A stretch of DNA of 34,021 nucleotides from Cellvibrionales bacterium (GTDB lineage Bacteria; Pseudomonadota; Gammaproteobacteria; Pseudomonadales; UBA7434), in NCBI GenBank assembly GCA_002726445.1, contig PBSZ01000015.1:1-34021 (forward strand). The letters are read 5' to 3'. Below are positions 11,070-34,021 of the stretch, piece after piece. The notes under the pieces were generated by a model. It had not been told where the DNA came from. It ran no database searches and was given only the letters and a program-made list of their open reading frames with translations. The translations under genes and the position numbers were made by a program. The first letter of the stretch is position 1, and each line of letters opens with the position of its first letter.

Positions 11070-12719
11070 ATGGTGATGGAAATCAATAGAGACTCAGACT
11101 CACAAGTTGACTCACAACAACGGCTTGCAGTTGATTCAGGCAAGGTTACTCCTGCTACCTCTCCGGCCGCATCTGAAACATATCGGGACGAAAAAAAACG
11201 CGCACAATTCAATGCGTATTTAGCAAGATATCGATTCGAGCGCGACCCTTTTATTGATCAAGATAATAGCGGGCTGTTTTATCCGGGATCTGGCCGTCAG
11301 CAGGCGGTCCAATCTTTGTTACATTACTCGCGTTATGGCAGTACACCCGTTTTCCTTACGGGTCCCGCAGGTGCTGGCAAGACCGCGACCTTGAGCGCGG
11401 CGGTTCGTGAATTAAAAGGCGATGTTGATATAGCAAGTATTCGAGCTGAGCTAATGATGAGCACCGCCCAAGTGTTCACGGCGTTAGCGACTGGCCTTGG
11501 TATTGATATCGATCGTGACAGTGCTAATGATGTGGAGTGCTTGGGCCAGAACTTACTGGCATTTTTTGACAGCAATACGGCGATTGAGCGCCAATCCCTT
11601 ATTTGCATTGATAATGTTGAGGATTTAGGCCACGAGGCACTGGCATCGGTATTTACTTTACTTGCGGCAGCAGAGGGTAAATTAGCGGCTATTCTGGTCG
11701 GCCAGCAACAGGCGCTGAGTTTACTCGAGTCAGCGGCAGAAGCGGAAGATTTACTGATCAATCGAATTGAGTTGTCGCCTTTTAGCCAGTCTGAAGTTTA
11801 TGACTATGTTTTTTATCGGCTTGAAGCGGTTGGGTTTAAAGGCGAGTTCCCGTTAAGCCAGATGCAGCTGCAAGCGCTAACGTATCGGAGTCAGGGTAGC
11901 GTGCGACAGTTGCATCAAGTGGTACGCAGTATGCTAATGGCAGGCAAAGCTAGCCAGATTCCATCTCGTAAACCCTTTCCATTAGGCCATGCAGTCGCAT
12001 TGATCTTTCTAACAATTTTGATCGTATTTGTATATAACTCAAGTGTAGAAGAACCGGTTTTAGTCAAAGATTTTGAGCCAATTGTCTTGGTCGGTGCTCA
12101 GTCAGGCTTTAGCCGAGAGCCAGAAAGTAATATTCAATCATCGATTGACAATGAGCCGCTCTCAACGGCTAAAGATGCCGTCACGGTTAAAACCGCCGGT
12201 GAAGTTAGGACTAGCTTACAGGCGCTGGCGGAAGACCTGCCGGCAACAAACAATGCGGATGTGATGAGTAATCGGCGCGAGCTTGTCACGACAACGGCCT
12301 CAGCGGCAGGAGTAGATGATCGGATTACACGAGATAGTAGTGATGGTAGCTCTCAAGGCATTGATTTAATAGATGAAATTGGCAATTCCCAGGCAGAAAA
12401 CAGGCGGTTTAAGATCGCAGATTGGCCTGATACCGGCTACGCACTTCAAATTTTTGGCACCCACAACCCAAAGCGTGCCAAGCAACTGGTTGAGCAATAT
12501 GCCGAGCAATTGCCGCTATTTGTCTATGAGACGCGCTACAGCGGTAAGGCCTGGTTTGTCGTGGTTGGTGGTCCGTATATAGGCCGAGATGAAGCAAAAC
12601 AAGCGATTCAAGACCTGGCTACCGGACTGCAGCGCTTGAGACCTTGGCCACGTAATATCGCCAGTATTCAATCTGATATTCAGCGATTTAGTGCTGTTAT
12701 TGAGGCCAAACAAGAGTAG
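11070..12719 (+). CDS. damX: AAA ATPase with TM segment and C-terminal SPOR-like domain (DamX-like cell-division protein)
   Basis: Walker A TGPAGAGKTATL, single TM (HAVALIFLTILIVFVYNSS), C-terminal YALQIFGTHNPKRAKQLVEQYAEQLPLFVYETRYSGKAWFVVVGGPYIGRDEAKQAI typical of SPOR; position after aroKB as for damX. Confidence 0.82.
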   Translation: MVMEINRDSDSQVDSQQRLAVDSGKVTPATSPAASETYRDEKKRAQFNAYLARYRFERDPFIDQDNSGLFYPGSGRQQAVQSLLHYSRYGSTPVFLTGPAGAGKTATLSAAVRELKGDVDIASIRAELMMSTAQVFTALATGLGIDIDRDSANDVECLGQNLLAFFDSNTAIERQSLICIDNVEDLGHEALASVFTLLAAAEGKLAAILVGQQQALSLLESAAEAEDLLINRIELSPFSQSEVYDYVFYRLEAVGFKGEFPLSQMQLQALTYRSQGSVRQLHQVVRSMLMAGKASQIPSRKPFPLGHAVALIFLTILIVFVYNSSVEEPVLVKDFEPIVLVGAQSGFSREPESNIQSSIDNEPLSTAKDAVTVKTAGEVRTSLQALAEDLPATNNADVMSNRRELVTTTASAAGVDDRITRDSSDGSSQGIDLIDEIGNSQAENRRFKIADWPDTGYALQIFGTHNPKRAKQLVEQYAEQLPLFVYETRYSGKAWFVVVGGPYIGRDEAKQAIQDLATGLQRLRPWPRNIASIQSDIQRFSAVIEAKQE

Positions 12720-13042: not shown

Positions 13043-16000
13043 ATGAGTGATAACACTAGGTTCGGCCTTTACGACAGCTCGTTGGAAAAGAGCAGCTGTG
13101 GCGTTGGCTTCCTAACTCGAAAAGACGGCAAGCAGACCCATGACCTTTTAGTTAAAGGCCATGAGGCACTCTGTGCTGTGCCACACCGAGGTGGTATGTC
13201 GGCTGAAGGTGTGGGCGATGGTGCTGGTGTATCGATCGATTTATCACTGGAATTTTTTAATCACGTCACCGGCCACACTTTGAGTTTAGGCCAGTTCGGG
13301 GTTGGTAACTTCTTTATGCCCAGCGATACCAGTCAGCATGGATTGGCCAAGCAACTGATTGATGATGCGCTCAGCGCTGCAGGCATGACAACACTCATCA
13401 CCCGCGATGTGCCCGTTAATAATGACGTGCTTCGTCCTGCAGCCGTGCAATATCAATTGCCAATTATACAGTGGGTATTCTTAGCTCCCGAGGGCATTGA
13501 AAGCGATCGGTTTAATCAAAAAATTCATCAGGTTTTATTAGCGGTAGAAGCGCGAGCCTACACTGAGCCTGAGTTAAGTGGGCTGTATCCTTTGTCTTTA
13601 TCGGCGCAGATGCAGGTATTGAAAGGGCGCGTCAATTCAAACGAAATTATTCCTTATTTTTGCGATTTGAATGATAGTCAGCAAAGTATTCATACCTTAT
13701 ATTTCCATACCCGTTTTTCTACCAATACTGACCCGCACCCATCAATGGCACAGCCTTTTCGATTGATGGCACACAACGGTGAGTTAAACACTGATAAGAA
13801 AAATCGCTTATCAGAAGCGGCTATTGCCCGCGCCAAAGAAAACAACATCATTCGTCCCAAAGGCCAGTCTGATAGCTGCCGCTTGGACCAAACCCTGCAA
13901 TCGCGAGTGATTGAAGATGGTTTAGATTTAGTCACAGCTGTAGTGTCGATGATGCCGCCCGCTTGGGAAAACGACCAAACCTTATCGCCAGATGTTAGGG
14001 CGATGTTGGAATATTTTTCTTTGTATGAAGAGAAAAACGACGGGCCTGCGGCGTTAATCTTTGGCGATGGCAGTATTATTGGTGCGCGTCTCGACCGCCT
14101 CGGTCTGCGGCCACTCCGAAGTATTGAAACAGAAAATTATTTAGCGGTTATGTCTGAGGCAGGCCAGATCGATTTTAAAGATGAAGCTGTCTTGAGCCGA
14201 GGCCGGATAGAAGCGGGCGGCATGCTATATTATGATCACCAACAAAAACGTTCGTTTAATACCAACCAAGCCCTTGAGATGTTGTCAGAGCAGCGTGACT
14301 ATATTCAGCTAGTGAATGAGGCACGCACGCACATTGATGCATTAGCGGCACCTGAAGGATCTGATTCAGCGGCCTTGTTAGCTTACTCAGGCGATTTAGC
14401 TTTGGCCGGACGATATGTTTCTTATTCCCATAACCAAGAATGTTTCCGGTTTTTAATGGATCCCATGCTGGCAACTGGCGTTGAGAAGGTCTCGGCTATG
14501 GGGTATGGCAATGCGATTAATGCCTTGTCGGATAATGAAGGCGGCGTTGCAAAATATTTCTCTCAACGCTTTGCTCAAGTCACCAATCCACCACTGGATT
14601 CTATTCGAGAAGCCGAAGGCATGACTTTACGGGTGGCACTTGGGACTAAACCCAACATTGGCAAAAAAGCAGCGCGTCAAATTGTTATTGACTCGCCTGT
14701 TTTGAACTTTAACCAAATGCAGCGCATCTGCCATCAGCAAGAAACGCCCATTGGCCGCTTTAGCATGCTTTATCAGCCGGTATTTAACGATTGTGAAGCA
14801 AATCAATTGGCTTTGGTGTCAGCCATCGACGCTATTTGCGATCAGGTCGAAAAATTTGCAGCCGATAAAGGCGGTATTGCCATTATCAGTGATCGTGATA
14901 TTTCACGCACTCATGGTTCCATTGCGATGACTTTGATTGTCTCTGCAATTAATCAGCGCTTGATTGAAGCGGGCTTACGGCTGCGAGTTTCACTGATTGT
15001 TGAGAGCGGTCAGATTTGTTCCTCGCATCATATTGCTTGTGCATTGGGCTTTGGTGCGGCAGCCGTTTATCCACTGGGTGTCCAGCTTCGCGCAGAAGAA
15101 AAATTCTCTGAAGATACTGACCTTGCCTATCAAAAATTTGCTAAGGCGGCCGAAAAAGCGCTAATGAAGACTATGGGTAAAGTGGGTCTCTGTACCGTTG
15201 AGAGCTATTCGGGTGGCGAATTCTTTGAGCCAAATTTCCTCAATACTGATGACCCAGTTTTCCGTCGCTATTTCCCTAACATGAAATCGCCAGTTGGCGG
15301 TGTAGGTTTTGTCGAAGTGGCACAAGCAATGACAGACTGGCATCAGCATGCTTTAGACTGTCATTCTGAAAATGATATTCCGATGCTGGGCTTATTTAAA
15401 GAGCGTGCAGAAGGAGCCGGCCACAGTTATGGTATTACGGCAGTCCGGGGGTTTGTTGACTTAACCGAAGAAAAAATTGCCTTTGAGAATCAGGACGAAC
15501 AAGATACCAAAGACACCTTACGTTTATTAACTTTAAATCGCATGGAAAGTGCATTTGGTATCAGTGAAGAAGGCTATACCAATACCAGCTTTGATCGATT
15601 AACTCACGATGAAATTAATAACTTTGATATCACGCCCGGGTATCGTGAGTTCTCACGCTCTATGGCGGAAGAAAGAGCCCGGCGACCTGCTGCTTTACGT
15701 GATGTCTTGGCGTTTCCTGCCGATATTAGCTTTATTGATAAAGCAGATGATTTTCGTGAAGAATTGATGCGGTTTAATCGTGCCGGTAATAATGATTTTG
15801 TTATTCGAGGTCTTGATTGCGAGCCGCTTAGTGAGTCTGAATTTTCTTTACAATTAACCGGCAGCAAAGCTAATGATGCTAACCGACTTGAGCAATTAGC
15901 CATTTCGTTTGTCGATCGCTTTAACGATAATATTGTAAGCCATCAAATTAAAGGGCAACGTCTGCTTATCACGGCTAGCCATGAAGCACTTGATTATCTC

Positions 16001-18529
16001 ACACGTTTGCGTTCGGCACTGCCCGCTCTACCTCTTGAAGAGGTGCAACCAGCCAGTGCGATAACCCCATTTTTAGCCTCTGGCGCAATGAGTCATGGTG
16101 CTTTAGTGGCGACTGCTCACGAGGCGGTTGCGCACGGTACTAATATGGTCGGCGGCATGTCGAACAGTGGTGAGGGTGGCGAGCACCTATCGCGATACGG
16201 CACTATTCGAGCATCAAGGATTAAACAGTTTGCGTCGGGCCGATTTGGTGTATGGGCAGGGTATCTCGCTGACCCCATGCTTGAAGAAGTTGAAATTAAA
16301 ATTGGTCAGGGTGCCAAGCCAGGTGAAGGCGGTCAATTGCCAGCACCAAAAGTAAATGTTGAAATTGCCGCTGCACGCGGCGGCGTGCCGGGTGTCGAAT
16401 TAATTTCGCCACCACCGCATCACGATACTTATTCAATTGAGGATTTGGCTCAGCTGATTCACGATGCCAAAGCAGCGCGCGTACGCGTGATTGTTAAATT
16501 AGTATCATCCGATGGCATAGGCACCATCGCTGTTGGTGTTGCTAAAGCCGGAGCTGACGTCATTAATGTTGCGGGTAATACCGGCGGTACGGGCGCAGCG
16601 TCAGTCACTTCGCTCAAATATACCGGCCGCGCGGCAGAAATCGGTATTGCTGAAGTGCATCAAGCGCTGTCTGCAAACGGCCTTCGTAGTAAGGTTATTC
16701 TTCGCTGTTCTGGTGCCCATCAAACCGGCTCCGACGTGGTGAAGTCTGCTTTGATGGGAGGTGATAGTTTTGAGTTTGGCACCACGGCATTGATGATGCT
16801 CAAGTGTGTAATGGCAAAAAACTGTAACATCAAATGTCCTGCAGGCTTAACTACCAACCCAGAAGTGTTTGATGGTGATCCTCGTGCACTGGGTCAATAT
16901 TTATTGAATATTGCTCATGAAGTTAGAGAAATTCTTGCTCAGCTTGGCCTACGGTCTTTGCGCGAGGCGAGAGGCCGAAGCGATTTAATGCATCTGTTAG
17001 ATCATCCTTCTTCGGTTGGCCAATTAGATTTAAGAGCTATGTTGACGGTGGTCGATGAGTTTAAAGTTGATAATCCTATCTATATGGAAAGAGACTTTGC
17101 TGTTGACGATGAATTTCTTGTCCATGTTAGGCAAGCCTTAATCGATAAGAAACAATTATCGATTACTGTCCCTGAAAGCCGTCATTTAAATAACTGCAAT
17201 AAAAGCGTTGGTGGTCAGTTGGCGATTGATTTAGAGCGCATATTGAACCATGAATTAGCGGATATGGATTTACCTGCGGTATTGAAAGATCAGCGTGGCC
17301 GACGTTACCTTCGAGAGGCAAGTGTTAATATTGCCACGCACGGTTCTGCTGGTCAGTCCTACGGTGCCTTCTGTAATGACGGCATGGTGTTGGAGCATAC
17401 CGGTACTTGTAATGATGGTGTGGGTAAAACCGCTTGTGGTGGTCAGATTGTGGTGCATGCGCCAGCCAGCGAAAATCAAGCCATGGGTAATAATGTATTG
17501 ATAGGCAATTTTGCCTTATTTGGCGCAACAGGCGGAAGAGTTTTTATTGAAGGTCAAGCTGGCGATCGTTTTGCGGTAAGAAACTCTGGTTCGACGGCGG
17601 TCGTAGAAGGTGTGGGTGATTTTTGCTGCGAGTATATGACTAATGGCGCAGTGTTAAACTTAGGTGGATTTTCGAAAGGGTTCGGTAATGGTATGTCCGG
17701 CGGGTTTGCCTACCAATATGATCCTGATGGCTCGTTCACTGACAGTATTAGCCATGACTCTGTTCTATTGGGTTCATTGTCAGAAAGTTCTGAGCAATCG
17801 GATATTCATGCGCAAGCGGTTAAGACATTATTAGCTTGGCATGTAGCGGCAACCGACTCACAAAAGGCAAAGCAATTACTGGCCAATTGGAACGCTGAGA
17901 AAAAGCATTTCTCGTATATTGTTCCGCGTGCGTTACTGCAGTATCAAGATTCAGAGGCTATTTTAGCCGCTAAGCCACGTAAAGAATTATTGGAAGAGTT
18001 GGCGACAGCGCTTGCGGCTCATCAAGTGAATAAGCTTAAACGTGCTTGGCGCTCTGGTCAGCCAGTGTTTCATGGTTTCGTGCCAGATACGCAACTTGGC
18101 GATGATGGCGACAAGAAATATGAATTATTGAATACCTATTCTGTGTTAGATACGGCGCAAAAGTTGGCGCTGAAAAAACTGCCCGCCATTAACGATGTCA
18201 CGCATCCCGATGCGGTTAAAGCTACGCGCAATCTGATTTTGACTGAAGATTTTGCTTTAATGAATGGTTTGTTGCGCCACTCTCGCCAAGCAATTGCCGC
18301 TTATAGCGACAGCGAGCTGGCTGCAATGATTGCCAATAAACGATTAAATGATTTTAAACAAACGCTGAGTCTGCGCAATATTATAGCAATGGACAGTCCG
18401 GCTACTTATGGTTGGATTATTCATCAGCAACAGAAGAACAAAACAGCATTAGGTCGAATTCCAAGTTTTGAAGAGTTATTTGCCTTCAACGCGATGAATG
18501 ATTTATTACCTAATGTGAGTCAATTATGA
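13043..18529 (+). CDS. divergent, extended glutamate synthase large subunit (GltB-like, 1828 aa)
   Basis: N-terminal Ntn amidotransferase (CGVGFL with candidate nucleophile Cys19, HRGG, HTRFSTNT, LMAHNGELNT, SDS); FMN barrel (SNSGEGGEHLSRYGT, IKQFASGRFGV, QGAKPGEGGQLPAPKV, LISPPPHHDTYSIEDLAQLI); Fe-S cysteines CVMAKNCNIKCPAG; GXGXG-type alpha-domain repeats. Contains an extra ~100 aa before the FMN domain and an extra ~185 aa at the C-terminus compared with textbook GltB. Confidence 0.9.
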   Translation: MSDNTRFGLYDSSLEKSSCGVGFLTRKDGKQTHDLLVKGHEALCAVPHRGGMSAEGVGDGAGVSIDLSLEFFNHVTGHTLSLGQFGVGNFFMPSDTSQHGLAKQLIDDALSAAGMTTLITRDVPVNNDVLRPAAVQYQLPIIQWVFLAPEGIESDRFNQKIHQVLLAVEARAYTEPELSGLYPLSLSAQMQVLKGRVNSNEIIPYFCDLNDSQQSIHTLYFHTRFSTNTDPHPSMAQPFRLMAHNGELNTDKKNRLSEAAIARAKENNIIRPKGQSDSCRLDQTLQSRVIEDGLDLVTAVVSMMPPAWENDQTLSPDVRAMLEYFSLYEEKNDGPAALIFGDGSIIGARLDRLGLRPLRSIETENYLAVMSEAGQIDFKDEAVLSRGRIEAGGMLYYDHQQKRSFNTNQALEMLSEQRDYIQLVNEARTHIDALAAPEGSDSAALLAYSGDLALAGRYVSYSHNQECFRFLMDPMLATGVEKVSAMGYGNAINALSDNEGGVAKYFSQRFAQVTNPPLDSIREAEGMTLRVALGTKPNIGKKAARQIVIDSPVLNFNQMQRICHQQETPIGRFSMLYQPVFNDCEANQLALVSAIDAICDQVEKFAADKGGIAIISDRDISRTHGSIAMTLIVSAINQRLIEAGLRLRVSLIVESGQICSSHHIACALGFGAAAVYPLGVQLRAEEKFSEDTDLAYQKFAKAAEKALMKTMGKVGLCTVESYSGGEFFEPNFLNTDDPVFRRYFPNMKSPVGGVGFVEVAQAMTDWHQHALDCHSENDIPMLGLFKERAEGAGHSYGITAVRGFVDLTEEKIAFENQDEQDTKDTLRLLTLNRMESAFGISEEGYTNTSFDRLTHDEINNFDITPGYREFSRSMAEERARRPAALRDVLAFPADISFIDKADDFREELMRFNRAGNNDFVIRGLDCEPLSESEFSLQLTGSKANDANRLEQLAISFVDRFNDNIVSHQIKGQRLLITASHEALDYLTRLRSALPALPLEEVQPASAITPFLASGAMSHGALVATAHEAVAHGTNMVGGMSNSGEGGEHLSRYGTIRASRIKQFASGRFGVWAGYLADPMLEEVEIKIGQGAKPGEGGQLPAPKVNVEIAAARGGVPGVELISPPPHHDTYSIEDLAQLIHDAKAARVRVIVKLVSSDGIGTIAVGVAKAGADVINVAGNTGGTGAASVTSLKYTGRAAEIGIAEVHQALSANGLRSKVILRCSGAHQTGSDVVKSALMGGDSFEFGTTALMMLKCVMAKNCNIKCPAGLTTNPEVFDGDPRALGQYLLNIAHEVREILAQLGLRSLREARGRSDLMHLLDHPSSVGQLDLRAMLTVVDEFKVDNPIYMERDFAVDDEFLVHVRQALIDKKQLSITVPESRHLNNCNKSVGGQLAIDLERILNHELADMDLPAVLKDQRGRRYLREASVNIATHGSAGQSYGAFCNDGMVLEHTGTCNDGVGKTACGGQIVVHAPASENQAMGNNVLIGNFALFGATGGRVFIEGQAGDRFAVRNSGSTAVVEGVGDFCCEYMTNGAVLNLGGFSKGFGNGMSGGFAYQYDPDGSFTDSISHDSVLLGSLSESSEQSDIHAQAVKTLLAWHVAATDSQKAKQLLANWNAEKKHFSYIVPRALLQYQDSEAILAAKPRKELLEELATALAAHQVNKLKRAWRSGQPVFHGFVPDTQLGDDGDKKYELLNTYSVLDTAQKLALKKLPAINDVTHPDAVKATRNLILTEDFALMNGLLRHSRQAIAAYSDSELAAMIANKRLNDFKQTLSLRNIIAMDSPATYGWIIHQQQKNKTALGRIPSFEELFAFNAMNDLLPNVSQL

Positions 18530-18538
18530 GAACCGTGC

Positions 18539-20296
18539 ATGAAACCTCCCTTTATACCCGATGATGCCCCTTTTACTGGTGACCAAAAATCTTGGTTGGC
18601 CGGTTTTTTAGCGGGCTTACAATCTGCTAAGCAGATGGCAGATCAGCAAAATGCTTCTTTAACGGCGACTGCTGGTCAAGTCGCACCACGGCTGGATATT
18701 TTATACGGCAGTCAAACAGGTAATGCTGAAGGCGTTGCCATGGATGCTGCTAACGTGGCCAGAGCTCAAGGATTTAATCCTGTGGTTCAGGGCATGGATG
18801 ATGTGAACATAGAAGATTTTGCTCAGATGGAAAAAGTTATTTTTTCAGTCGCGACTTACGGCGAAGGTGAAATGCCCGATAACGCCGAATTATTTTGGCA
18901 GTCACTGTCTGCCAGTGATATGCCAAAATTACCGGATATGAAATTTGGCGTATTAGCCTTAGGTGACACGGGTTACGATGAGTTTTGCCAGGCCGGTAAG
19001 CTTATTGATATGCGTTTAGAGCAATTAGGTGCGACCCGCTTAGTTGACCGCGTTGACTGTGATGTTGATTTTGAAGATATTGCTGAAGAGTGGATTAATA
19101 CTACCATACCGTTAGCAAATGATGGCGATGCCATAGCAACGGCTATTCCGGTTCAGGCCGAATCAGCAGTGGTAAAATCCATTTGGAATCGAAAAAATCC
19201 TTACCCGGCTACGGTCACAAAGAATCTATTGTTGTCAGCGGAAGGCTCGGCTAAAGAAATTCGTCATTTTGAAATTGACCTTGGTGATAGTGACTTAAGT
19301 TATGAGGTCGGGGATGCCCTTAATGTGATGCCGATCAATGATGCTGACTTAGTTGAAGCTTTGCTGGCTTATTTTTCATTGCCTGCTGACAGCTTACTCG
19401 ATGGGCAGGAGCAACCACTGGGCGAGCTATTGACATACAAGTACGAGATTTCAACGCCTTCTAAAGAGCTTATCGCTGCGGTAGAAAAAATTGCTGATCA
19501 TGATGCCTTTAGTCATGTGTTTAAGAATGGTGACAAAGAAGCATTAGCAGACTTCTTATGGGCGAAGGATATTCTTGATTTACTGCAATTGACAGAAAAA
19601 GTGAGTTTCACTGCTGAGGAATTCTTGAGCTTACTTAAGCCGTTACAGCATCGAGCGTATTCAATATCCTCCAGTGTTAATAAACATCCCGGCTCCGTTC
19701 ACTTAACTGTGGCGGCGGTGCGATGGTCCTATGAATCAAGGCAGCATTTAGGTGTTTGTTCAACGTTTCTCGCTGATCGAGTTGCCGAGGGCGATAAGGC
19801 CGGTATCTTTATCTCTACCAATAAATCATTTCGTATCCCCGCTGACGACACTGCGCCAATGATTATGGTGGGCCCAGGAACCGGCATTGCGCCGTTTAGA
19901 GCTTTCTTAGAGGAGCGGCAGGTGCGTCAAGCAACAGGGCCAAATTGGCTTTTCTTTGGCGATCAAACTCGTGCTGCTGATTTTATTTATCAAGATGAAT
20001 TGTCTGCGATGCAAGAGCAAGGTGTATTAACTCGACTTGATTTGGCCTTTTCTAGAGATCAGGCCGAGAAGATTTATGTGCAGCATAAAATGAAACAACA
20101 TGGCGCCGAACTTTTTTCATGGTTAGAGCAGGGCGGTTACTTTTATGTCTGTGGTGATGCAACCCGAATGGCGCGTGATGTTGATCAAGCGCTTGCCGAT
20201 GTAATTGCGCAACACGGCACGATGAATGCTGAAAAAGCCACCGATTATGTTAATAATCTTAAACGTGAAAAACGTTATCTACGCGATGTTTATTAA
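18539..20296 (+). CDS. CysJ-type NADPH diflavin reductase (flavodoxin + FAD/NADPH ferredoxin-reductase-like domains)
   Basis: Flavodoxin FMN loop LYGSQTGNAEGVA, SVATYGEGEMPDNAELF; FAD motifs RAYSISSS and GVCSTFLADR; NADPH motifs MVGPGTGIAPFRAFLEER, FFGDQTRAADFIYQDEL, YVCGDATRMARDV; C-terminal KREKRYLRDVY. Starts 9 nt after the gltB-like stop. Confidence 0.93.
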   Translation: MKPPFIPDDAPFTGDQKSWLAGFLAGLQSAKQMADQQNASLTATAGQVAPRLDILYGSQTGNAEGVAMDAANVARAQGFNPVVQGMDDVNIEDFAQMEKVIFSVATYGEGEMPDNAELFWQSLSASDMPKLPDMKFGVLALGDTGYDEFCQAGKLIDMRLEQLGATRLVDRVDCDVDFEDIAEEWINTTIPLANDGDAIATAIPVQAESAVVKSIWNRKNPYPATVTKNLLLSAEGSAKEIRHFEIDLGDSDLSYEVGDALNVMPINDADLVEALLAYFSLPADSLLDGQEQPLGELLTYKYEISTPSKELIAAVEKIADHDAFSHVFKNGDKEALADFLWAKDILDLLQLTEKVSFTAEEFLSLLKPLQHRAYSISSSVNKHPGSVHLTVAAVRWSYESRQHLGVCSTFLADRVAEGDKAGIFISTNKSFRIPADDTAPMIMVGPGTGIAPFRAFLEERQVRQATGPNWLFFGDQTRAADFIYQDELSAMQEQGVLTRLDLAFSRDQAEKIYVQHKMKQHGAELFSWLEQGGYFYVCGDATRMARDVDQALADVIAQHGTMNAEKATDYVNNLKREKRYLRDVY

Positions 20297-23861: not shown

Positions 23862-25481
23862 CTAATTAACCGCTTCTGTTGCGCCTAATTGTTGGCTTAT
23901 TGGCACAGTTAATTGGAAGCTTGACCCTTTGCCTACTTCACTACTGAGGCTGATATCACCTCCAATTAATTTAGTAAGGTTCATTGCTATTGATAGCCCT
24001 AGACCGGTACCAACAAATTTCCTCGTTTCACTGCCATCTATTTGCCTGAAAGGCTCAAAGATAACGGCTTGCTGCTCTGGGCTGATGCCGATACCGCTAT
24101 CGATAACGTCAATAGTTAATAGCTGTTTATTGATTGACGCCGTTAATTGAATAGAGCCTTGGTGAGTAAATTTAGCTGCGTTGCTCAACAAATTTAACAG
24201 CACCTGAAATAATTTCTTTTGATCAATGTCGATGTCTTGTTGAATATTTTCTGTATTAACAATTAATGTATTGTCATTTTTTTCGATAAGCGGTGCAATG
24301 GTATCAGCGACGGTGTTGAGTAATTCAGCGATATTAGTTTGCTGGTTATTAAGTTCCATTTTACCAGCTTCAATCTTTGATATATCTAAAATTGAATTGA
24401 TTAAACCCAATAAGTGATCTGCATTATGGGTGATTCTATCGAGGTCGCTTTGGGTATGAATAACACCTTCATCAAGCAGCAATTCTTTGACGACTTCCGA
24501 ATAGCCAATAATGCTTTGTAACGGTGTTCGGAGTTCGTGAGTGACATTGGCAAGAAACTCAGTTTTATGCTGGTTGGCCTCTAATGCAGCATCTCTCGCC
24601 TGCACTAACTCACTGGTTCTTAAGGCAACTTCCGTTTTGAGTAGATTTTTTTGACTTCGTAATTTTTGATCGCGCTCAGCTAAATTAGAGATCATTTGGT
24701 TATAAACTTCAGCGACTTTAATGATTTCTTTTGATGCATTATCGTCAATATCAGAAATTTTATAGGTGCCGTCTGATGTTTGCTCCATCACTTTAGTCAG
24801 TTTATTCATCGGCTTTAATAATCGGCGTAAGGTTAGTATTAATAGTGTGGCGAATACTAAGCCATAGCCGAGGCCGAGGCCGAGGTTTCGAATAAATAAT
24901 AACAATTGAAAGTTACGTAATTCAGATGTATCAATTTGTATGGCAACATAGCCTAGATAAATTTCTTCTATGCCCTCATCGTTTAGGCCAAAGCTATTAT
25001 CCTCTTCGCTATAAGAGGTGAATACTGGCGCAGCCACTTGCCAGGTTGCTTGGCTGGTAGAAAGAATTTGTGCAGTCTTATTTTGCCAGTCATCTTTTCC
25101 TAGTGATGACAATATTGATTCGTTAGTTTCACCCTCGGCTAAGATGACAATATTGCTATCGCTGATGACCGCAACATGTTTGATGCTCGGATAATTTAAA
25201 GTCGCTAATGCTGCTTCTTTGGCATTTTCACCGCTTTCGTAAATTAAGGCGAGCTCACTGAGCTGAGCAAAGTGCTCGGTCGCCTGCAAGCCCTCCCGTT
25301 CATAAAATGTGGAAATCATATTACTGGCGATATAGGAGTAGGCAAATGCAGCGGCAATGGCAATGATAAAACCAGTGATGGCGAAATTGATAAAAAGCTT
25401 TTTTTGAAAGCTTTGAGGATTAGTACTTTTCGCTCTTTTGCTAGCGTATGAAGACGAATTGATTGACTGTATAAAATTCAT
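23862..25481 (-). CDS. membrane sensor histidine kinase (HAMP-HisKA-HATPase_c)
   Basis: Two TM segments flanking an extracytoplasmic region; HisKA FLANVTHELRTPLQSIIGYSE, N-box LLSNAAKF, G1 DSGIGIS, G2 GTGLGLSIAMNLTKLIGG. Preferred start ATG 25481, preceded by GGAGGGAAA; the ORF-track start at 25520 overlaps the upstream gene. Confidence 0.93.
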   Translation of the reverse strand: MNFIQSINSSSYASKRAKSTNPQSFQKKLFINFAITGFIIAIAAAFAYSYIASNMISTFYEREGLQATEHFAQLSELALIYESGENAKEAALATLNYPSIKHVAVISDSNIVILAEGETNESILSSLGKDDWQNKTAQILSTSQATWQVAAPVFTSYSEEDNSFGLNDEGIEEIYLGYVAIQIDTSELRNFQLLLFIRNLGLGLGYGLVFATLLILTLRRLLKPMNKLTKVMEQTSDGTYKISDIDDNASKEIIKVAEVYNQMISNLAERDQKLRSQKNLLKTEVALRTSELVQARDAALEANQHKTEFLANVTHELRTPLQSIIGYSEVVKELLLDEGVIHTQSDLDRITHNADHLLGLINSILDISKIEAGKMELNNQQTNIAELLNTVADTIAPLIEKNDNTLIVNTENIQQDIDIDQKKLFQVLLNLLSNAAKFTHQGSIQLTASINKQLLTIDVIDSGIGISPEQQAVIFEPFRQIDGSETRKFVGTGLGLSIAMNLTKLIGGDISLSSEVGKGSSFQLTVPISQQLGATEAVN

Positions 25482-25491
25482 TTTCCCTCCA

Positions 25492-26505
25492 CTAGCGTTG
25501 CGTTGGGTAGATTTTATCAAATCCTGCTTGATCTGATGTGCTTAAACGAATACCAATATGTGAGCTGGTTCGTAAATTAATGGCAATACGCAGTTCTTGA
25601 GTGCCAATAATGGCGTCATTCGTTTTACCTTGAAAATGGTCAGTGGCAAATTTAGCCAGCTGGCTGCCCATTTTTTGGTGCTCAGGATAGATGGCCATTA
25701 GACCACCTAACTTTGTGTGCGATGGGTTGTTAGAAAATACCGCTAACTTTTTACTCCATGCACGCTCTAGCAACATCGGCAGTATGGTCTTAGACGGCAC
25801 AATATTCCTTAACGGTAACCAGATAGCCGAGGTGTTTGGCGTGGCATCATCTAATAATTGCTGATATGACTGAACGCCAGCCTTAATATCTTTAGCGTTA
25901 TAGCCAACAATATTAAAGCCATATTTAGGGGCGATTTTTTGTGCTTTATGGTACCACCACCCATTAAGTGATTCGTTGTATACCAGCATCACATCTTCAA
26001 TATGGGGAGCCACTCGTTTTAATTCTTTTAATGCTGCTTCAGGATCGCTGGACAAGCTGAGTGTTGGCCTCAATGACTGGTTGCCGGTAATTCCTCCAGC
26101 AATGACCAGTGTATCGATGGGTAATAATGCGGCTAAGCGGTAACTGGTATTACCCAGTGCAATCACTAGCTCACTGTTGTTTTCTAGAATATGTTGCTCA
26201 ACCATTTCAATAGACGACGCTTTATCAACCATCATAATAGAAATTTTTAGATCGCTATTCGATGTAATGCCCTCGGCAACATTTTGATAAATGTTTTTAG
26301 CGGCGCCCGTCACTAAAGGCATGATTAAGGTCGTTTTAATCGGGATATTGCTGCTGGGTTCCACAGGGCTAATGGTATTGTCAGCACCGCTTAGAGCGCT
26401 AATCATTAACAGCAGCCATAGGCAGGCCACACGCCGAAAGAACCCGCGAGCCAGTTTATTGCTTGAATAGCAAATCGCTTGCTTAGCTGCTGTTATGTGA
26501 GTCAA
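25492..26505 (-). CDS. periplasmic ABC-type substrate-binding-like protein
   Basis: N-terminal hydrophobic signal-like segment; Rossmann-like repeats (LVIALGNTSYRLAALLPIDTLVIAGG, DVMLVYNESLNGWWYHKAQKIAPKYGFNIVGYNAK, AVFSNNPSHTKLGGLMAIYPEHQKMGSQLAKFATD) resembling the ABC substrate-binding (PF04392-like) fold. Confidence 0.72.
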   Translation of the reverse strand: MTHITAAKQAICYSSNKLARGFFRRVACLWLLLMISALSGADNTISPVEPSSNIPIKTTLIMPLVTGAAKNIYQNVAEGITSNSDLKISIMMVDKASSIEMVEQHILENNSELVIALGNTSYRLAALLPIDTLVIAGGITGNQSLRPTLSLSSDPEAALKELKRVAPHIEDVMLVYNESLNGWWYHKAQKIAPKYGFNIVGYNAKDIKAGVQSYQQLLDDATPNTSAIWLPLRNIVPSKTILPMLLERAWSKKLAVFSNNPSHTKLGGLMAIYPEHQKMGSQLAKFATDHFQGKTNDAIIGTQELRIAINLRTSSHIGIRLSTSDQAGFDKIYPTQR

Positions 26506-26857
26506 TTGCTTGCAGTATCCCTAGCATAATTACCGTCATTGCTTAGCTTAATAAATAATCTATTCGTGTTTCTAACGCAGTAAACACTTACTTCCTGATC
26601 ATTAAGTTTGGCAGATATTTGGTAATTTGCCGCCAATATTTGATTATTTTTTAACTCATTTGTAAATAATTCATTAAAACCAATAATTTACATGACAAAC
26701 TGAAGGTAAGGCTGTAAAAATGATGGCTATAGTATGCAGAATATTATCCGATAAGCGATTGGTCTTTATTGGGGTGTTTTATTAGGCGTGGATTGATTAA
26801 TGAAGTTGATAATCAAAGCGTTTTTACCTGTGTTTATTCAAACTTAAAGGGTATTAA

Positions 26858-28756
26858 GTGTCTGAAATAAAACATATTATTGGTAAATCACAGGCGTCAG
26901 ATAAGACGGCTAACCCCGCTTTCACATATGCCGATTTGATCGTTGATTATCTCAGCCAAATCGATGTCGAGTTTGTTTTTGGTATCCCTGGCGGTGCGAT
27001 TGAAGGGCTGTTTGACGCCTTAGCACGGCGACATAAGGGCGAGATCCCTCAAACATCGATCCATCACTCCCGCGCGCTTGAGCGAAAAAGACCTCGCTCA
27101 GTCTCGGGCCCCCAAATGGTGGTTGCTCGGCACGAAACGGGCGCTGCCTTTATGGCTGACGGCTATGCTCGGTCAACGGGCAAGTTAGGTGTCTGTTGTT
27201 CGACCACGGGTCCAGGGGCAACGAATTTACTGACCGGTGTGGCTAATGCCTACGTTGATCGTGTACCGATGCTGGTGATTACCCCTCAAACGGCCTTACC
27301 GAGCTTTGGTCAGCGGGGTTTTCAAGAGTCGTCGAGTGATTTAGTCGACGTCGTGTCTATCTTTGATCACTGTACTCGCTACAGCTCGTTGGTCTCGCAT
27401 CCCGATCAATTAGAGGGTAAATTATTCACTGCCTTGTCAACCGCTTTTCGACGCCCTCGCGGCCCTGTCCACCTGAGTATTCCGGCTGATATTTTATCGA
27501 TGCCGGTGCCAAATGCCGCTGCCAGTTTTAATGTTGCAACCCTGCTAAGAGAGCCCGTTGCGGTTGACGATGCCAGTTATCAAGCCTTACTGTCAGCGAT
27601 TGAGAAGTCTCGACTTAATCGCCGTAATATCACCCTTTTTATCGGCGAAGATTGCGGTGATGCTGCCGATCAAATTCTCCATTTTGCCGATTTAGTCGAA
27701 GCGAATATCGTCAGCTCTCCTGCCGGAAAGCGTTGGTTGGGCGCTGGCCATCCACGCTACTGTGGCGTATTTGGTTTTGCCGGCCATGAAAGTGCTCGGC
27801 GGGCGTTGGTTGATGAGAGTGTCGATCTTGTCTTAGCCGTAGGCACCAGTTTTAATGAGCTAGATACTGCTGGCTGGGATACGCAAGCCTTACTGAATGA
27901 TCGCTTAGTGCATATTGCCTCTTCAGTGGGTAGCTTTGATCGCTCTCCCATGGCCTATTTACATGTATATGGCAACTTACATACCTTATTTGCCAAGCTG
28001 ATTGCTGGCATTGATGCGAAATACGTCGCCTACCCACATGCCACAGTCGACGCGCTTCAAGCGCCGCAAGCAAGCCAAAAACTGATGGCTCAGTTGATGC
28101 CGGCCAACATAGAAATTGTTGAGCCAGAAAAAACATTAAGCCAAGACTTGCCCATAAAACCGCAGCGCTTAATGGCGGCGCTGGCTGAAAAGTGTGCCGA
28201 TAATAGTCGTTATTTTATTGATACGGGCAATGCTTGGAGCTGGGCGACGCATTACATGCATCTACCTAAAGCGGATACTTTTTACATTGCTATGGGTTTT
28301 GGCGCGATGGGGTGGGCCATCGGTGCCGCAGTGGGAGCTGCATTCGGCAACCGACAATCACCGGTTGTGTGTATTACAGGCGATGGCTCCTACCTCATGT
28401 CAGGTCAAGAAATAACGGTTGCTATTGAACACCAACTCCCGGTTATTTATGTGATTTTGAATGATCAGGCCTACGGTATGGTTAAGCACGGTCAACGCAT
28501 GAATAAAGCAGAAGAAATCGGCGCAGAATTGCCGCCGATCAATTTTGCTGAAATGGCCCAGTCTATGGGTGTCAAAGGGCATAGAATTGAGTGTTGGGAA
28601 GATTTCAGTGATATTGATTCAACTGAACTTCAATCGCCATCAGGTCCTATCTTGTTGGATATTATTATTGATGGTGAAGAAATCCCACCCATGAAGACCC
28701 GTCTAGATGTCTTGCAAGAAGCCAAACATGGCATTGAACTCGCCCAGTTGCCCTAA
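26858..28756 (+). CDS. thiamine diphosphate-dependent enzyme, acetolactate synthase-like
   Basis: FVFGIPGGAIEGLFDAL; catalytic Glu context VARHETGAAFMADGYAR; TTGPGATNLLTGVANAYVDRVPMLVITPQ; ThDP motif GDGSYLMSGQEITVAIEHQLPVIYVILNDQAYG. GTG start preceded by AAAGGG. Confidence 0.9.
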   Translation: MSEIKHIIGKSQASDKTANPAFTYADLIVDYLSQIDVEFVFGIPGGAIEGLFDALARRHKGEIPQTSIHHSRALERKRPRSVSGPQMVVARHETGAAFMADGYARSTGKLGVCCSTTGPGATNLLTGVANAYVDRVPMLVITPQTALPSFGQRGFQESSSDLVDVVSIFDHCTRYSSLVSHPDQLEGKLFTALSTAFRRPRGPVHLSIPADILSMPVPNAAASFNVATLLREPVAVDDASYQALLSAIEKSRLNRRNITLFIGEDCGDAADQILHFADLVEANIVSSPAGKRWLGAGHPRYCGVFGFAGHESARRALVDESVDLVLAVGTSFNELDTAGWDTQALLNDRLVHIASSVGSFDRSPMAYLHVYGNLHTLFAKLIAGIDAKYVAYPHATVDALQAPQASQKLMAQLMPANIEIVEPEKTLSQDLPIKPQRLMAALAEKCADNSRYFIDTGNAWSWATHYMHLPKADTFYIAMGFGAMGWAIGAAVGAAFGNRQSPVVCITGDGSYLMSGQEITVAIEHQLPVIYVILNDQAYGMVKHGQRMNKAEEIGAELPPINFAEMAQSMGVKGHRIECWEDFSDIDSTELQSPSGPILLDIIIDGEEIPPMKTRLDVLQEAKHGIELAQLP

Positions 28757-29012: not shown

Positions 29013-31049
29013 ATGCACATTCCAACCTATTTCGCTATTTTGTTTTTATTTATTTGTTCGACAGCGACGGCTCAAATTGAAGATGATCTCATCGGTCTTT
29101 ACGAAGAGGACGAGCTCATTACCATTGCTACCGGTACGGCAAAAGAAGTTCGATTTGCGCCGTCTGTTGCGACCGTGATTACTGCTGATGATATAAAGAA
29201 TACAGGTGCACGCTTCCTAGATGACGTCTTGGAGATGGTGCCTGGCATGCATGTAGGTAGAGGCTCAAATCGCCAAAATGCTATTTATTCTTTAAGAGGT
29301 ATCCATACGGATGAAAACCCACAGGTTTTATTGTTAATTGATGGTATCGACACGGCGCAACTTTTCAATAGCAGTCGGTCATACAACTATCGTTTACCAG
29401 TAGCTAATATTAGCCGGATTGAAATTATCCGAGGTCCGGGCTCTGCGGTTTATGGTGCGGATGCTTTCTCTGGCGTGATCAATGTTATTACTAAAGTGCC
29501 CAGTGATACGGGTGAAAAATTGCTTGGTGGACGAAGTGGTTCTTTTGATTCAGATGATTTGTGGTTTATCGGCGGCACGCAATTGGCTGGCCTTAACGTT
29601 GATCTGGCTGTGGAGTATTCGCGCAGTGAGGGTGATGATGGTCGCATTGTGCCAGTTGACGCGGCATTTCCCAGTCAGCCGACCTTTGCGCCGAGCGCAC
29701 TGTCGACTCACTATGAATTATTCAACAGTCGACTATCGATTGCAAATGACGATTGGAAGCTGTCATTGAGTTCATATAATTTAGTCAGTGCTGGTTTAGG
29801 TTCTGGTGGGGCAGAGGTCCTTGACCCTATCGGTCGCGATAAAGCTAATGCTTTTAAAATCCACTATAGTCAGCAATTCAATGAATCGGTTGATAACTGG
29901 CGTTTTAAATTAGATATAAGTGGCGGTATCAACGATCAAAACCCGCGTTTTGTTTTATGGCCTAGCAACACAACTTTACCCTTTTTGCCTGGTGCTTTTC
30001 CAGAGGGGGTAATTGGTCAACCTAGCACTGAAGATACTGTCTACACCGTTGAGCTTGCGTCAATATTTGATGGCTTGGAATCACATTCAATGCGAATTTC
30101 AGTGGGTTATGAATATCAGAATATTAAGTCGGCTGAAGTAAAAAACTTTGATTTTTCTGGAGGTATTACCGCTGGGACGTTAACGGATGTAACGGGAACA
30201 GATTTGATCTTTCTTGAAAATCAAACGCGAGAAGTTCATTTTGTCTCATTACAGGATGAATGGCAGCTGGCTAATGACTGGGCGCTTACCTTCGGGCTTC
30301 GATTTGATGATTACAATGACTTTGGCAGTACGGTAAACCCACGTCTGGCTTTAGTATGGGCTGCCGATTATAACCTAACTATGAAAGCCTTGTATGGCCG
30401 TGCATTTAGAGCACCAAGTTTTGCGGAGTTATTTGCAAAAAATAATCCAGCAATTTTGGGTAATGCGACGCTTGACCCTGAAGTTATTGATACTTTTGAA
30501 ATCTCGATAGAATATGACGTGACTGCCGATTTAAATACTAGTTTGAATATTTTCTACTATGAGGTTGAAGATTTGATTGACTACCCTAGTTTTGGTCAAC
30601 CAGCAGCAAATCTTTTTGCACAGTATGGGCATGGCCTTGAGTGGGAATTAAATTGGGCTATAAACAGTAAGTGGTCAACAAAAACTAATATGGCATGGCA
30701 GCATTCAGCACAGGCCGGTGTTCGAGTGGCCGATGCTCCTAATCACCAAGTTTATACGATGCTAACTTGGCAGCCAGATTCAGACTGGACTTTTAACGCT
30801 GTTGCAACTCGTGCCTTTGGCCGTGCCAGGGCGGAGGGCGACTCTCGAGATAAAATCGATGATTATTCGACGGTTGATTTTGTTGCCTATAACGATAACT
30901 TAATTCCAAATCTACAAACCAGTATAGTTATTAAGAACGCTCTTGACCGAGAAAACTTTGAACCCAGCGCTTCTGTCAGCTCTCTTCCAGGCGACTATCC
31001 TTTAGAAGGCCGATCAGTTAGAATCGAACTCACATACTCACTCAACTGA
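29013..31049 (+). CDS. TonB-dependent outer-membrane receptor
   Basis: Signal peptide; TonB-box-like ELITIATG; plug PSVATVITADDIKNTGARFLDDVLEMVPGMHVG, IEIIRGPGSAVYGADAFSGVINVITK; barrel motif ALYGRAFRAPSFAELF. Confidence 0.95.
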   Translation: MHIPTYFAILFLFICSTATAQIEDDLIGLYEEDELITIATGTAKEVRFAPSVATVITADDIKNTGARFLDDVLEMVPGMHVGRGSNRQNAIYSLRGIHTDENPQVLLLIDGIDTAQLFNSSRSYNYRLPVANISRIEIIRGPGSAVYGADAFSGVINVITKVPSDTGEKLLGGRSGSFDSDDLWFIGGTQLAGLNVDLAVEYSRSEGDDGRIVPVDAAFPSQPTFAPSALSTHYELFNSRLSIANDDWKLSLSSYNLVSAGLGSGGAEVLDPIGRDKANAFKIHYSQQFNESVDNWRFKLDISGGINDQNPRFVLWPSNTTLPFLPGAFPEGVIGQPSTEDTVYTVELASIFDGLESHSMRISVGYEYQNIKSAEVKNFDFSGGITAGTLTDVTGTDLIFLENQTREVHFVSLQDEWQLANDWALTFGLRFDDYNDFGSTVNPRLALVWAADYNLTMKALYGRAFRAPSFAELFAKNNPAILGNATLDPEVIDTFEISIEYDVTADLNTSLNIFYYEVEDLIDYPSFGQPAANLFAQYGHGLEWELNWAINSKWSTKTNMAWQHSAQAGVRVADAPNHQVYTMLTWQPDSDWTFNAVATRAFGRARAEGDSRDKIDDYSTVDFVAYNDNLIPNLQTSIVIKNALDRENFEPSASVSSLPGDYPLEGRSVRIELTYSLN

Positions 31050-31059
31050 TGTTTATTTT

Positions 31060-31881
31060 ATGGTTAACCGTTCGGTTAAAAGCAGGAAAGAACCCTTTGT
31101 AAAAAAAGCCTCGACCAATATCTGGCAAGAACAGCCGGTTGAGCATAACCCTTATCTTGTTGAGAAAACGCATCTTCGTGGTTACGATTTTGATGAGCTA
31201 ACTCAGCATTGTGATTTCACAGAGATGTTCTATTTACTTTTTTTGGGTGAACTACCCAATCGAAATCAGAAGCAATTACTGCAATTACTGTTAGTTACTT
31301 TTATTAGTCCAAGCCCAAGACATCCAGCTTCTAGGTCGGCTATGAGTTTAGGCGGAGGTAAAACCTTTCCACAGCATATCCTACCGGCATCGCTCGGTAT
31401 CGCAGGTGGCGAATATTTAGGTGGTCGTCAAGTGCAGCTTTGTATGCAGTTAATTCAGGACAATCATCAGATAATACCTGCACTATGGTTAGAGGAACAG
31501 GAAGCTAGATTGGCCGAAGCGGATAAAGCTTTATTAGCTGAAGGCCGGATTATTTACGGTTTTGGCCAGCAGTATGGTGAGATCGACCCATATGCCTCGT
31601 TATTGGCTGATAAGTTTTTAGGTAAATCTTTTTCAGGGCCACATTTAACGTGGTGCGCCGGTCTTGTTGAAGAATTAAAGCCATATTGTATAGGCTGGTT
31701 GCAAACTGGTATTGTTGCGGCAGTGCTTTGCGATTTAGGTTTTCCTCCTCATGCGGGTGCGGGGCTATTTCAACTCATACAAGCCCCTGGCTTACTTGCC
31801 CATGGATTAGAAGCTTACCCTAAGTCCCGCACAGAATTTCCATTTGTTAGGGATGAGGATTACGACATTGTCGACACTTAA
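31060..31881 (+). CDS. citryl-CoA lyase/citrate synthase-like protein, copy 1
   Basis: IWQEQPVEHNPYLVEKTHLRGYDFDELTQHCDFTEMFYLLFLGELP resembles the N-terminal part of the citrate synthase/citryl-CoA lyase family; 10-nt gap after the TonB receptor. Confidence 0.75.
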   Translation: MVNRSVKSRKEPFVKKASTNIWQEQPVEHNPYLVEKTHLRGYDFDELTQHCDFTEMFYLLFLGELPNRNQKQLLQLLLVTFISPSPRHPASRSAMSLGGGKTFPQHILPASLGIAGGEYLGGRQVQLCMQLIQDNHQIIPALWLEEQEARLAEADKALLAEGRIIYGFGQQYGEIDPYASLLADKFLGKSFSGPHLTWCAGLVEELKPYCIGWLQTGIVAAVLCDLGFPPHAGAGLFQLIQAPGLLAHGLEAYPKSRTEFPFVRDEDYDIVDT

Positions 31882-32701
31882 AATAGAAGATTACGATCGC
31901 TTACGGAGTAAATTACCTAACCGTACAGGCGGTTGGGTACCCGGCACTGCGGTCTATTGCCGCGGTTATGACATGATGGACGATTTGGTGGGTAGGGTCG
32001 ATTTTTTTCAAAGCTTAGTGCTTAATATTACTGGTCAATTGCCCGAAGAACGGTTTGCAAAATGGCTGCATGCCGCCCATATCTGCGTCAGTTGGCCTGA
32101 TCCGCGCATTTGGTGCAATCAAATTGGTGCTTATGCTGCGATGGCGAGAGCCACGGTAAATGCAGCTAGCAGTTTTGGCAATCTTGCGGCTGATTCCGTG
32201 ATGTACGGTCAAGGCACTTTACCTATAGGAACTCGCTTGATACAGCGCTTGCATACACAGCATTTAAACGAAAAAAAATCGGTTGAAGAGATTGTTGATC
32301 AGGAGATTGAACGTAAGGGCGGTAAGGTTAATATTATGGGCTTTGCTAGGCCATTAGCATCAGGTGACGAGAGGGTGGTTGCGATGCGAAGGACTGCCAA
32401 AAATCTTGCCTACCAAGATGGCGCGCATATGCAATTAGCATTAGCTATAGAGGAGCTATTGTATAATCGGTACTCGGAGACGATGAATTTTACCGGCTAT
32501 TTGTGTGCATTTATGTCAGATTTAGGCTACTCAGCAGAGCAAGTGCATAGGATTTTTGCATTGATAGTCGTCAATGGCGTTACCGCCAGCTTTAGCGAAG
32601 AGGCCGAAAAACCAGTAGATAGTTTTTTACCGTTAAGGTGTGAAGACATTGAATATACTGGACCGGCTAAACGAGCCTTACCCGATATGACAGATGAATA
32701 A
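31853..32701 (+). CDS. citryl-CoA lyase/citrate synthase-like protein, copy 2
   Basis: AVYCRGYDMMDDLVGRVDFFQSLVLNITGQLP... and SPSPRH.../WPDPRI... segments align with copy 1; overlaps copy 1 in a different frame. ATG 31853 is the first ATG; the ORF-track start 31844 is TTG. Confidence 0.7.
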   Translation: MRITTLSTLKIEDYDRLRSKLPNRTGGWVPGTAVYCRGYDMMDDLVGRVDFFQSLVLNITGQLPEERFAKWLHAAHICVSWPDPRIWCNQIGAYAAMARATVNAASSFGNLAADSVMYGQGTLPIGTRLIQRLHTQHLNEKKSVEEIVDQEIERKGGKVNIMGFARPLASGDERVVAMRRTAKNLAYQDGAHMQLALAIEELLYNRYSETMNFTGYLCAFMSDLGYSAEQVHRIFALIVVNGVTASFSEEAEKPVDSFLPLRCEDIEYTGPAKRALPDMTDE

Positions 32702-32703
32702 AG

Positions 32704-34021
32704 TTAAGAGCCGGTTTTTTTAATAGCGGGTATTTTAGCGAGTTCTTCTATGGGCGCAGGCTTGGCAACTTCGTAGCCTTGAAACGCATCAACCTCTAGC
32801 ACGGTCAACACTTCTAATATGGCGCGGTTTTCAACGTATTCGCCAATCGTTTTAAGCCCCATTACGTGGCCTACCTCATTAATTGATTTAACCATCGCCA
32901 TATCAACCGGATTATTAAGGATGTCTTTAATAAATAAGCCATCGATTTTTAAAATATCAACCGGTAGTTTTTTCAAGTAAGCAAAGGACGACATACCGCT
33001 GCCAAAATCATCTAATGCGAACTGACAGCCAAGGTCTCTAACCGCGCCAATGAATTCAAGCGCATTAAGGAAATTTGAAATGGCTGCTGTTTCAGTGATC
33101 TCAAAACAGATTTTTTCAGGTGGCACTGATGAGTTTCTAAAGGACTCTGAAATAAATTCTGAAAAGCTGTCATCGCAGATAGACAAGCCTGAAAGATTAA
33201 TCGATATGTATTCGATATTATCCAGCGTCGATGGATGATTGCCTAACCATGCGAAGGCTTGGCTGATGACCCAGCGGTCGACGGTAGGGCTGAAGTTGTA
33301 GCGTTCTGCGGCTTCTAAATAGGGGGCGGGGCTAATAAGATTATCGTCTTTGTCGCGAATTCTTAGTAGGATTTCATAGCTGTCTTGTCCTTCGGCAGTT
33401 CGATTACTGATGCGTTGCTGAAACAGGCAGGTACGACCTTCTTGTATTGCTTCCATTAGCTCGGTCGCGAGCAAAGCTTCCGTGCGTTTAGCATAAATTG
33501 TTTCATCTTTACCGCTGTAGCTGGCTACGCGGTTTTTGCCACGCTCTTTCGCTTTGTTGCAAGCGGCGCTCGATGCTGAAATAAGCTCAGTCAGATCAGT
33601 AGTTTCATCATTAATAGAGACGATGCCAATGCCAACATTGATATCAAATATCTTGTCTTCATAAGTAAACTTTTGATTTGAAAATTCACAGGCAATGACT
33701 TCGCAGATACGTTGTGCAGCATCAATAGGGCAATGTCTAAGAAGAATGCCAAATTCATCACCGCCAACCCGTGCTATTGCATCGCTAGGTGAGCGAACTT
33801 TTTGTCGGAGCGTGCGAGCAATTTGCTGAAGTAATTGATCACCTGCATGATGGCCGCAGGTTTCATTAATGATATTAAATTGTGATATTGATAAATGACA
33901 CAGGGCGTGATGAAGTTCGTTGTTTGCTACTTCATGAATCGCTAGTTTAACTTCTTGATCAAAGGTGCTGCGATTATTTAGGCCCGTCAAAGGGTCATGA
34001 CTGGCATGAAATGACAGTTGT
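32704..34021 (-). CDS. GGDEF-EAL cyclic-di-GMP protein (5' end outside window)
   Basis: RVGGDEFGILL (intact GGDEF), EAL-domain landmarks YEILLRIRD, NLSGLSICD, FEITETAAI, ALDDFGSGMSSFAYLKKLPVDILKIDG. Upstream of the ORF-track TTG start the frame continues as QLSFHASHDPLTGLNNR to the window edge, so the gene is truncated. Confidence 0.93.
   Translation of the reverse strand, partial: QLSFHASHDPLTGLNNRSTFDQEVKLAIHEVANNELHHALCHLSISQFNIINETCGHHAGDQLLQQIARTLRQKVRSPSDAIARVGGDEFGILLRHCPIDAAQRICEVIACEFSNQKFTYEDKIFDINVGIGIVSINDETTDLTELISASSAACNKAKERGKNRVASYSGKDETIYAKRTEALLATELMEAIQEGRTCLFQQRISNRTAEGQDSYEILLRIRDKDDNLISPAPYLEAAERYNFSPTVDRWVISQAFAWLGNHPSTLDNIEYISINLSGLSICDDSFSEFISESFRNSSVPPEKICFEITETAAISNFLNALEFIGAVRDLGCQFALDDFGSGMSSFAYLKKLPVDILKIDGLFIKDILNNPVDMAMVKSINEVGHVMGLKTIGEYVENRAILEVLTVLEVDAFQGYEVAKPAPIEELAKIPAIKKTGS

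Follow-up and report, generated by a model that had tools for sequence, protein, structure and literature searches.

The window analysed here, i.e. the whole stretch of 34,021 nucleotides of contig PBSZ01000015.1 from a Cellvibrionales bacterium, carries two neighbouring forward-strand genes which encode citrate-synthase-fold proteins. The first one, C1 (31060..31881; assigned from its open reading frame, Pfam and profile alignment), starts with ATG and codes for 273 amino acids, the second one, C2 (31853..32701), for 282 amino acids, and both open reading frames are intact and complete. C2 might alternatively start from a TTG at 31844, yet the ATG at 31853 is more likely as it aligns with the start of the relative L014. 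Counted from this ATG, the genes overlap by 29 nt in different frames (31853..31881), which would become 38 nt with the TTG.

Only 10 nt upstream of C1 ends the gene of a TonB-dependent receptor (TBDR; 29013..31049, forward strand) whose plug and barrel reach 82.3 and 122.1 bits in Pfam, above the respective cut-offs. It is preceded by the gene of a thiamine diphosphate (ThDP, TPP) enzyme with Pfam N, M and C domains (26858..28756, forward strand). Divergently oriented from the latter are the genes, both assigned by Pfam, of a periplasmic binding protein (PF04392; 25492..26505, reverse strand) and of a sensor histidine kinase with a HAMP domain (23862..25520, reverse strand) the N-terminal stretch of which looks periplasmic. 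Downstream of C2 a reverse-strand gene, likewise assigned by Pfam, encodes a GGDEF-EAL protein which runs off the window (32704..34020); a full-length relative of it comprises 837 amino acids in the order receiver-receiver-PAS-GGDEF-EAL.

The intergenic region between the binding protein and ThDP genes contains blocks, namely AAGTTTGGCAGATATTT at 26604 and ATTAAAACCAATAATTTACATGACA at 26673, which the loci of the genus conserve ahead of the ThDP gene. A pattern search allowing up to 3 mismatches finds the 25-nt core of this motif a single time in the genome, as would suit an operator or promoter specific to this locus, and we consider it likely that the forward-strand region 26604..26719 serves as such.

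Fold and catalytic positions of C1 and C2

Both proteins match the citrate synthase superfamily (PF00285) above its gathering score (34.8 and 32.0 bits, cut-off 27), and their hhalign alignments to the citrate-synthase fold span 211-232 columns. They share 21% identity with each other (E 2e-6) at a profile-profile probability of 99%, which bears out the tandem paralogues that the earlier note had read from this DNA. The top solved relative of either is citryl-CoA lyase (Ccl, PDB 6hxp; E 7e-16 for C1 and 5e-13 for C2), and citryl-CoA lyase models are also the top-scoring named families. The resemblance to this enzyme and its NCBIfam PRK06224 models comprises the fold, the length, the N-terminal RGYD..L..LP region, the C-terminal YTG..R motif of C2 and a profile match across most of the length. 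The curated NCBIfam cut-offs for citryl-CoA lyase are, however, missed widely (at best 79.1 versus 212 and 76.6 versus 245), the catalytic His/His/Asp residues are replaced, and in place of one gene there are two co-inherited paralogues. A search of a plasmid collection returned nothing but remote citryl-CoA lyases. Since a canonical citrate synthase is encoded on a different contig of the same genome, C1 and C2 do not represent the housekeeping enzyme.

The catalytic positions were mapped by profile alignment to 6hxp, in which the first His lies within AHGG, the second His within GHR and the Asp within NVDG (C2 numbering refers to the ATG at 31853). C1 harbours Tyr119, Gln170 and Thr216 at these positions and C2 Met117, which adjoins the invariant Tyr118, Arg166 and Thr214. 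Hence, neither copy possesses an intact triad, as the earlier note had claimed by eye, and the replacement also extends to the second His, which that reading had not covered. In the same alignment an ordinary citryl-CoA-lyase relative (L094) retains His/His/Asp, demonstrating that the alignment is able to recover the triad. None of the 83 aligned rows (41 C1 and 42 C2 relatives) retains the second His or the Asp, while a His at the first position is present in 10 of 41 C1 relatives and in none of the 42 of C2. Partial loss of the triad extends beyond the pair, as two single-copy citryl-CoA-lyase-like proteins from other loci (L093, 8653-9453; L095, 8201-8977) retain the second His alone.

A marked asymmetry exists between both subfamilies. 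In C2, the position of the second His is occupied by Arg in 42/42 relatives, and 41 of these have Pro as the next residue. All 42 retain both Asp and Arg of the DPR motif, the NVDG Asn and the C-terminal Arg, and 40 of them the Tyr of YTG. The conserved set comprises the further invariants P82, R85, W87, N89, Y118 and G119 along with R166, P167, D172, E173, R174, N212, G270 and R274. The Arg of DPR corresponds to Arg314 in the citrate synthase of E. coli, which binds oxaloacetate. Such invariant alternative residues indicate that C2 is no decayed copy. In C1, on the other hand, the positions of the Arg, Asn and Tyr of C2 are not conserved columns, and conserved polar residues are few (E24, R87, W198, H248 and E251). 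As the pocket residues are kept in C2 and not in C1, this pattern suggests that C2 binds a ligand while C1 acts as a partner subunit. Even on a modest reading, the pair should not be counted among the enzymes of citrate metabolism.

Co-inheritance of the pair and its gene cluster

Among 369 genomes of the class, C1 is present in 41 and C2 in 42, and 41 of these 42 carriers have both (Fisher p 8e-54, relatedness ignored), as would be expected of the subunits of a heteromer. In the tree each protein forms one clade (100/100 in either case), both clades divide into the same groups A and B, and the distance matrices of C1 and C2 correlate with r = 0.90, so that the trees mirror each other. To judge from this phylogeny, both clades are ancient. 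Conservation as a pair had been set beforehand as a test of the earlier note, and the two genes turn out to be inseparable. C1 and C2 may, as the earlier note proposed, form an obligate heteromer with a non-citrate activity. A phylum-wide sample of 399 genomes reveals the pair also in three families outside the class.

In most carriers C1 and C2 are adjacent. The overlap in different frames emphasised in the earlier note does exist in the window but is not a conserved trait, because the spacing in relatives ranges from overlaps of tens of nt, via a common ATGA-type overlap of 4 nt, to gaps; the 29-nt overlap is accordingly nothing special. In one genome (G208, locus L065) C2 and C1 are unlinked on contigs C36 and C31, respectively, yet both retained. 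In another one, which consists of a single contig (G147; 3257642 and 3775498), C2 is split; its N-terminal part is next to C1 and the remainder lies at a distance of about 0.5 Mb, which points to a rearrangement.

The genes in the loci of relatives were placed by tblastn. Most loci examined contain, near the pair, a ThDP enzyme, a TBDR, a PF04392 binding protein, a histidine kinase and a (receiver-)GGDEF-EAL protein. Their order changes among loci, often giving two modules, ThDP-C1-C2-TBDR and binding protein-kinase. The minimal set observed is ThDP-C1-C2 (L146-L149), and in the f223/f236 loci these three genes alone were recognised while TBDR and binding protein were not; the sensory part is thus not universal. 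The ThDP gene, C1 and C2 lie together in most loci, and if a locus has no adjacent ThDP gene, the genome usually carries it at another place. Within the genus, two genomes without the pair (G003 and G011, 98-99% complete) also lack a close ThDP homologue, which the other genomes possess. An apparent loss of the pair in three further genomes with a ThDP gene (G004, G006 and G010) was rejected, as their contigs end at most about 2 kb downstream of this gene.

Among the conserved neighbours of the cluster we recognised neither a dedicated ABC permease/ATPase or other inner-membrane importer nor further degradation enzymes, nor does the cluster hold a conserved exporter or an obvious tailoring enzyme. 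No description of the cluster was found in the literature. In one locus (L079 of G045, 7979-11401) the matches to TBDR, C2 and ThDP enzyme are fragmented or contain a stop, and the cluster looks decayed. Upstream of the cluster in four group B loci (L070, L075, L088 and L096) chemotaxis-like genes are present which, by reading, are methyl-accepting, CheW-like and CheR-like.

The ThDP enzyme contains the catalytic Glu (RHETGA), the GDG motif (CITGDGS) and the sequence GVFGFAGH, as befits a member of the superfamily. Among solved structures it scores highest against BbmA (290 bits; we take the name BpmA in the literature to denote the same protein) and CsmA (253 bits), followed by acetolactate synthase (179 bits). 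BbmA and CsmA are alpha-hydroxy-beta-keto acid synthases. In the tree the ThDP enzymes of the cluster are separate from the acetolactate synthases of the same genomes, and BbmA joins their f215 members (98/86), though BbmA and CsmA sit on long branches. The scores and a GVFGFAGH-like motif common to the cluster enzyme, BbmA and CsmA favour a relationship to the BbmA/CsmA/CybE/ScyA type over one to acetolactate synthase; it would be a remote one, as seen from the long branches, and the cluster enzyme scores under the curated ScyA cut-offs.

Exchange of the TBDR-C1-C2 cassette

Comparison of the window with the locus L026 of the sister genome G001 reveals a sharply bounded region of divergence. 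The proteins encoded on the flanks are 75-92% identical (histidine kinase 85%, binding protein 75%, ThDP enzyme 88%, GGDEF-EAL protein 92%), while TBDR, C1 and C2 share 48%, 39% and 49%, respectively. At the DNA level the match amounts to about 79% as far as the beginning of the TBDR gene and to 73% from there to 29345; no match exists inside the cassette (29345..32639, forward strand), and from 32639, with about 60 nt of C2 remaining, the match resumes with 82%. The C1/C2 type of L026 is that of L024 (67% and 72% identity), though its flanks are closest to those of the window. In agreement with this, the flank tree unites the window, L022 and L026 (100/100), a grouping rejected for C1+C2 (p 2.7e-5) and for the TBDR (p 7e-4), whereas L026 and L024 group with 100/100 for C1+C2 and with 94/96 for the TBDR and are rejected as a group for the flanks; all these p-values are optimistic, since the tested groups were picked after the identity table had been seen. 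C1 and C2 of L025 group with those of other families.

A second case is provided by L150 and L153 from a genus of f215, outside the class. Their DNA is about 88% identical except for the stretch from the middle of C1 to about 90 nt before the end of C2, and the protein identities amount to 94% for the TBDR and 95% for the ThDP enzyme versus 77% for C1 and 53% for C2. The diversity of C1 and C2 is therefore not just due to hitch-hiking on the receptor. The right-hand border at the 3' end of C2 recurs in both cases. These comparisons show TBDR, C1 and C2 to be exchanged as a cassette within the genus and C1 and C2 only in another class. In other same-genus pairs the contrast is milder or absent. 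Most loci apparently stem from fragmented draft genomes; intact open reading frames, conserved gene order and recurrence nevertheless argue against chimeric assembly.

A possible function and its alternatives

Two known pathways offer a model. CybE, a homologue of BbmA/CsmA-type enzymes, and CqsB3/NzsH make alpha-hydroxy-beta-keto acids, and these are then coupled with an acyl thioester by a partner enzyme (PMC12395478, PMC7466098). The present locus resembles the cyanobacterin (CybE and CybF) and carbazole (CqsB3 and CqsB1/CqsB2) systems in that a ThDP enzyme is accompanied by a dedicated partner, which in those systems takes up its alpha-hydroxy-beta-keto acid (PMC12395478, PMC7466098). The kind of partner differs, CqsB1 being KAS III-like (PMC7466098) and CybF annotated as a ketoacyl-ACP synthase (PMC8777810), whereas here a citrate-synthase-fold pair is found along with a receptor and a sensor. 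Homology of CybF to C1 and C2 was considered and rejected, as CybF is described as a 3-oxoacyl-ACP synthase. Among the gene families common to at least 3 loci, we recognised, by reading and a partial Pfam search, no KAS III-like protein as a partner for the ThDP enzyme. By analogy, not homology, C1 and C2 would fill the partner's place of the furanolide and carbazole pathways.

The reading we prefer, albeit tentatively, is that C1 and C2 turn the product of the ThDP enzyme into a variable small molecule which is recognised by the TBDR and sensed by the kinase/c-di-GMP arm. The ThDP enzyme would make an unstable alpha-hydroxy-beta-keto acid from two 2-oxo acids. C1 and C2, as subunits of a heteromeric citrate-synthase-fold enzyme devoid of citrate or citryl-CoA chemistry, would convert it, perhaps together with an acyl thioester, to the small molecule. 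C2 would form the ligand pocket from its DPR Arg, its Asn and its C-terminal YTG...R, with Arg replacing the second catalytic His, while C1 would be the faster-changing partner. As the canonical acetyl-CoA-activating residues are absent, a condensation would need another mechanism. The cognate TBDR would import the molecule, presumably self-made, and the periplasmic protein would bind it; the histidine kinase would sense it and signal to the receiver-GGDEF-EAL protein (c-di-GMP). Alleles of C1 and C2, often swapped along with the receptor, would each yield their own chemical type matched to it.

An extension of this proposal, doubtful but in keeping with the exchanged cassettes, is a chemical typing system for pheromone signalling or kin recognition. 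ThDP enzyme, binding protein, kinase and c-di-GMP protein would constitute a fixed chassis, and swappable C1/C2 pairs, often with a matching TBDR, would each make and recognise their own molecule. In siderophore or pheromone type systems a fixed locus holds a biosynthetic gene and its matched receptor, which diversify and travel jointly. The C1/C2 locus is similar in that enzyme gene and receptor co-diversify and co-move at a fixed place; it is dissimilar in that no metallophore genes were recognised, in its output via a kinase and a c-di-GMP protein, and in its enzyme fold.

A TBDR with a sensor might just as well be devoted to a nutrient from outside. In a catabolic locus of this kind the TBDR would import an environmental compound, the sensor would detect this compound, and C1/C2 together with the ThDP enzyme would degrade it in the lyase direction, with alleles tracking substrate range. 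The nearest solved relative of C1 and C2 is indeed a lyase, TBDR and binding protein lie within the cluster, and ThDP enzymes such as 2-hydroxyacyl-CoA lyase, albeit weaker matches, act in the direction of cleavage. We nevertheless consider this unlikely because the ThDP enzyme is closest to synthases, importer and degradation enzymes are missing from the recognised conserved neighbours, and the swap of C1 and C2 between L150 and L153 without receptor change fits a model of substrate range poorly. Alternatively, C1 and C2 might be dead enzymes which regulate or scaffold the ThDP enzyme, similar to the small subunits of acetohydroxyacid synthase. The lost triad, the constant association with the ThDP gene and the few conserved polar residues of C1 would agree with such a role; the many invariant polar pocket residues kept in C2 make it distinctly improbable, as does the swapping of the pair with the receptor next to a ThDP enzyme conserved to 88%, unlike a subunit which has to fit that enzyme.

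Synthesis and uptake of a siderophore-like metallophore is highly unlikely. Although the TBDR shares an operon with biosynthetic-looking genes and receptor and enzyme co-diversify as in siderophore types, no convincing Fur box is found upstream (best 12/19), no ABC importer or exporter was recognised in the conserved cluster, and the orphan binding protein beside the kinase suggests sensing. The data on residues and co-occurrence already refute for the most part the idea that C1 and C2 are, in line with their best named-family scores, ordinary citryl-CoA lyases which have drifted and have no special function: co-inheritance is deep, the alternative residues are invariant, and the cluster is conserved inside and outside the class.

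If the preferred reading, a small molecule made by ThDP enzyme and C1/C2 and perceived via the TBDR, is true, a heteromer of citrate-synthase fold which lacks the classical triad would be a second kind of partner for acyloin-type ThDP synthases, and many gammaproteobacterial families would share a receptor-gated small-molecule system. Strains with different cassettes should then produce different molecules and each respond to its own. Automatic annotation likely masks the system under the names 'citryl-CoA lyase', 'acetolactate synthase' and 'TonB-dependent receptor'. Gene cluster, ThDP partner, the asymmetry between C2 with its conserved pocket and C1, and the cassette exchange go beyond the earlier note.

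Elsewhere in the window (13043-20296), the gene of the glutamate synthase large subunit is directly followed, at the place where gltD is expected, by that of a flavodoxin/FAD/NAD-binding diflavin reductase resembling the sulfite reductase flavoprotein.
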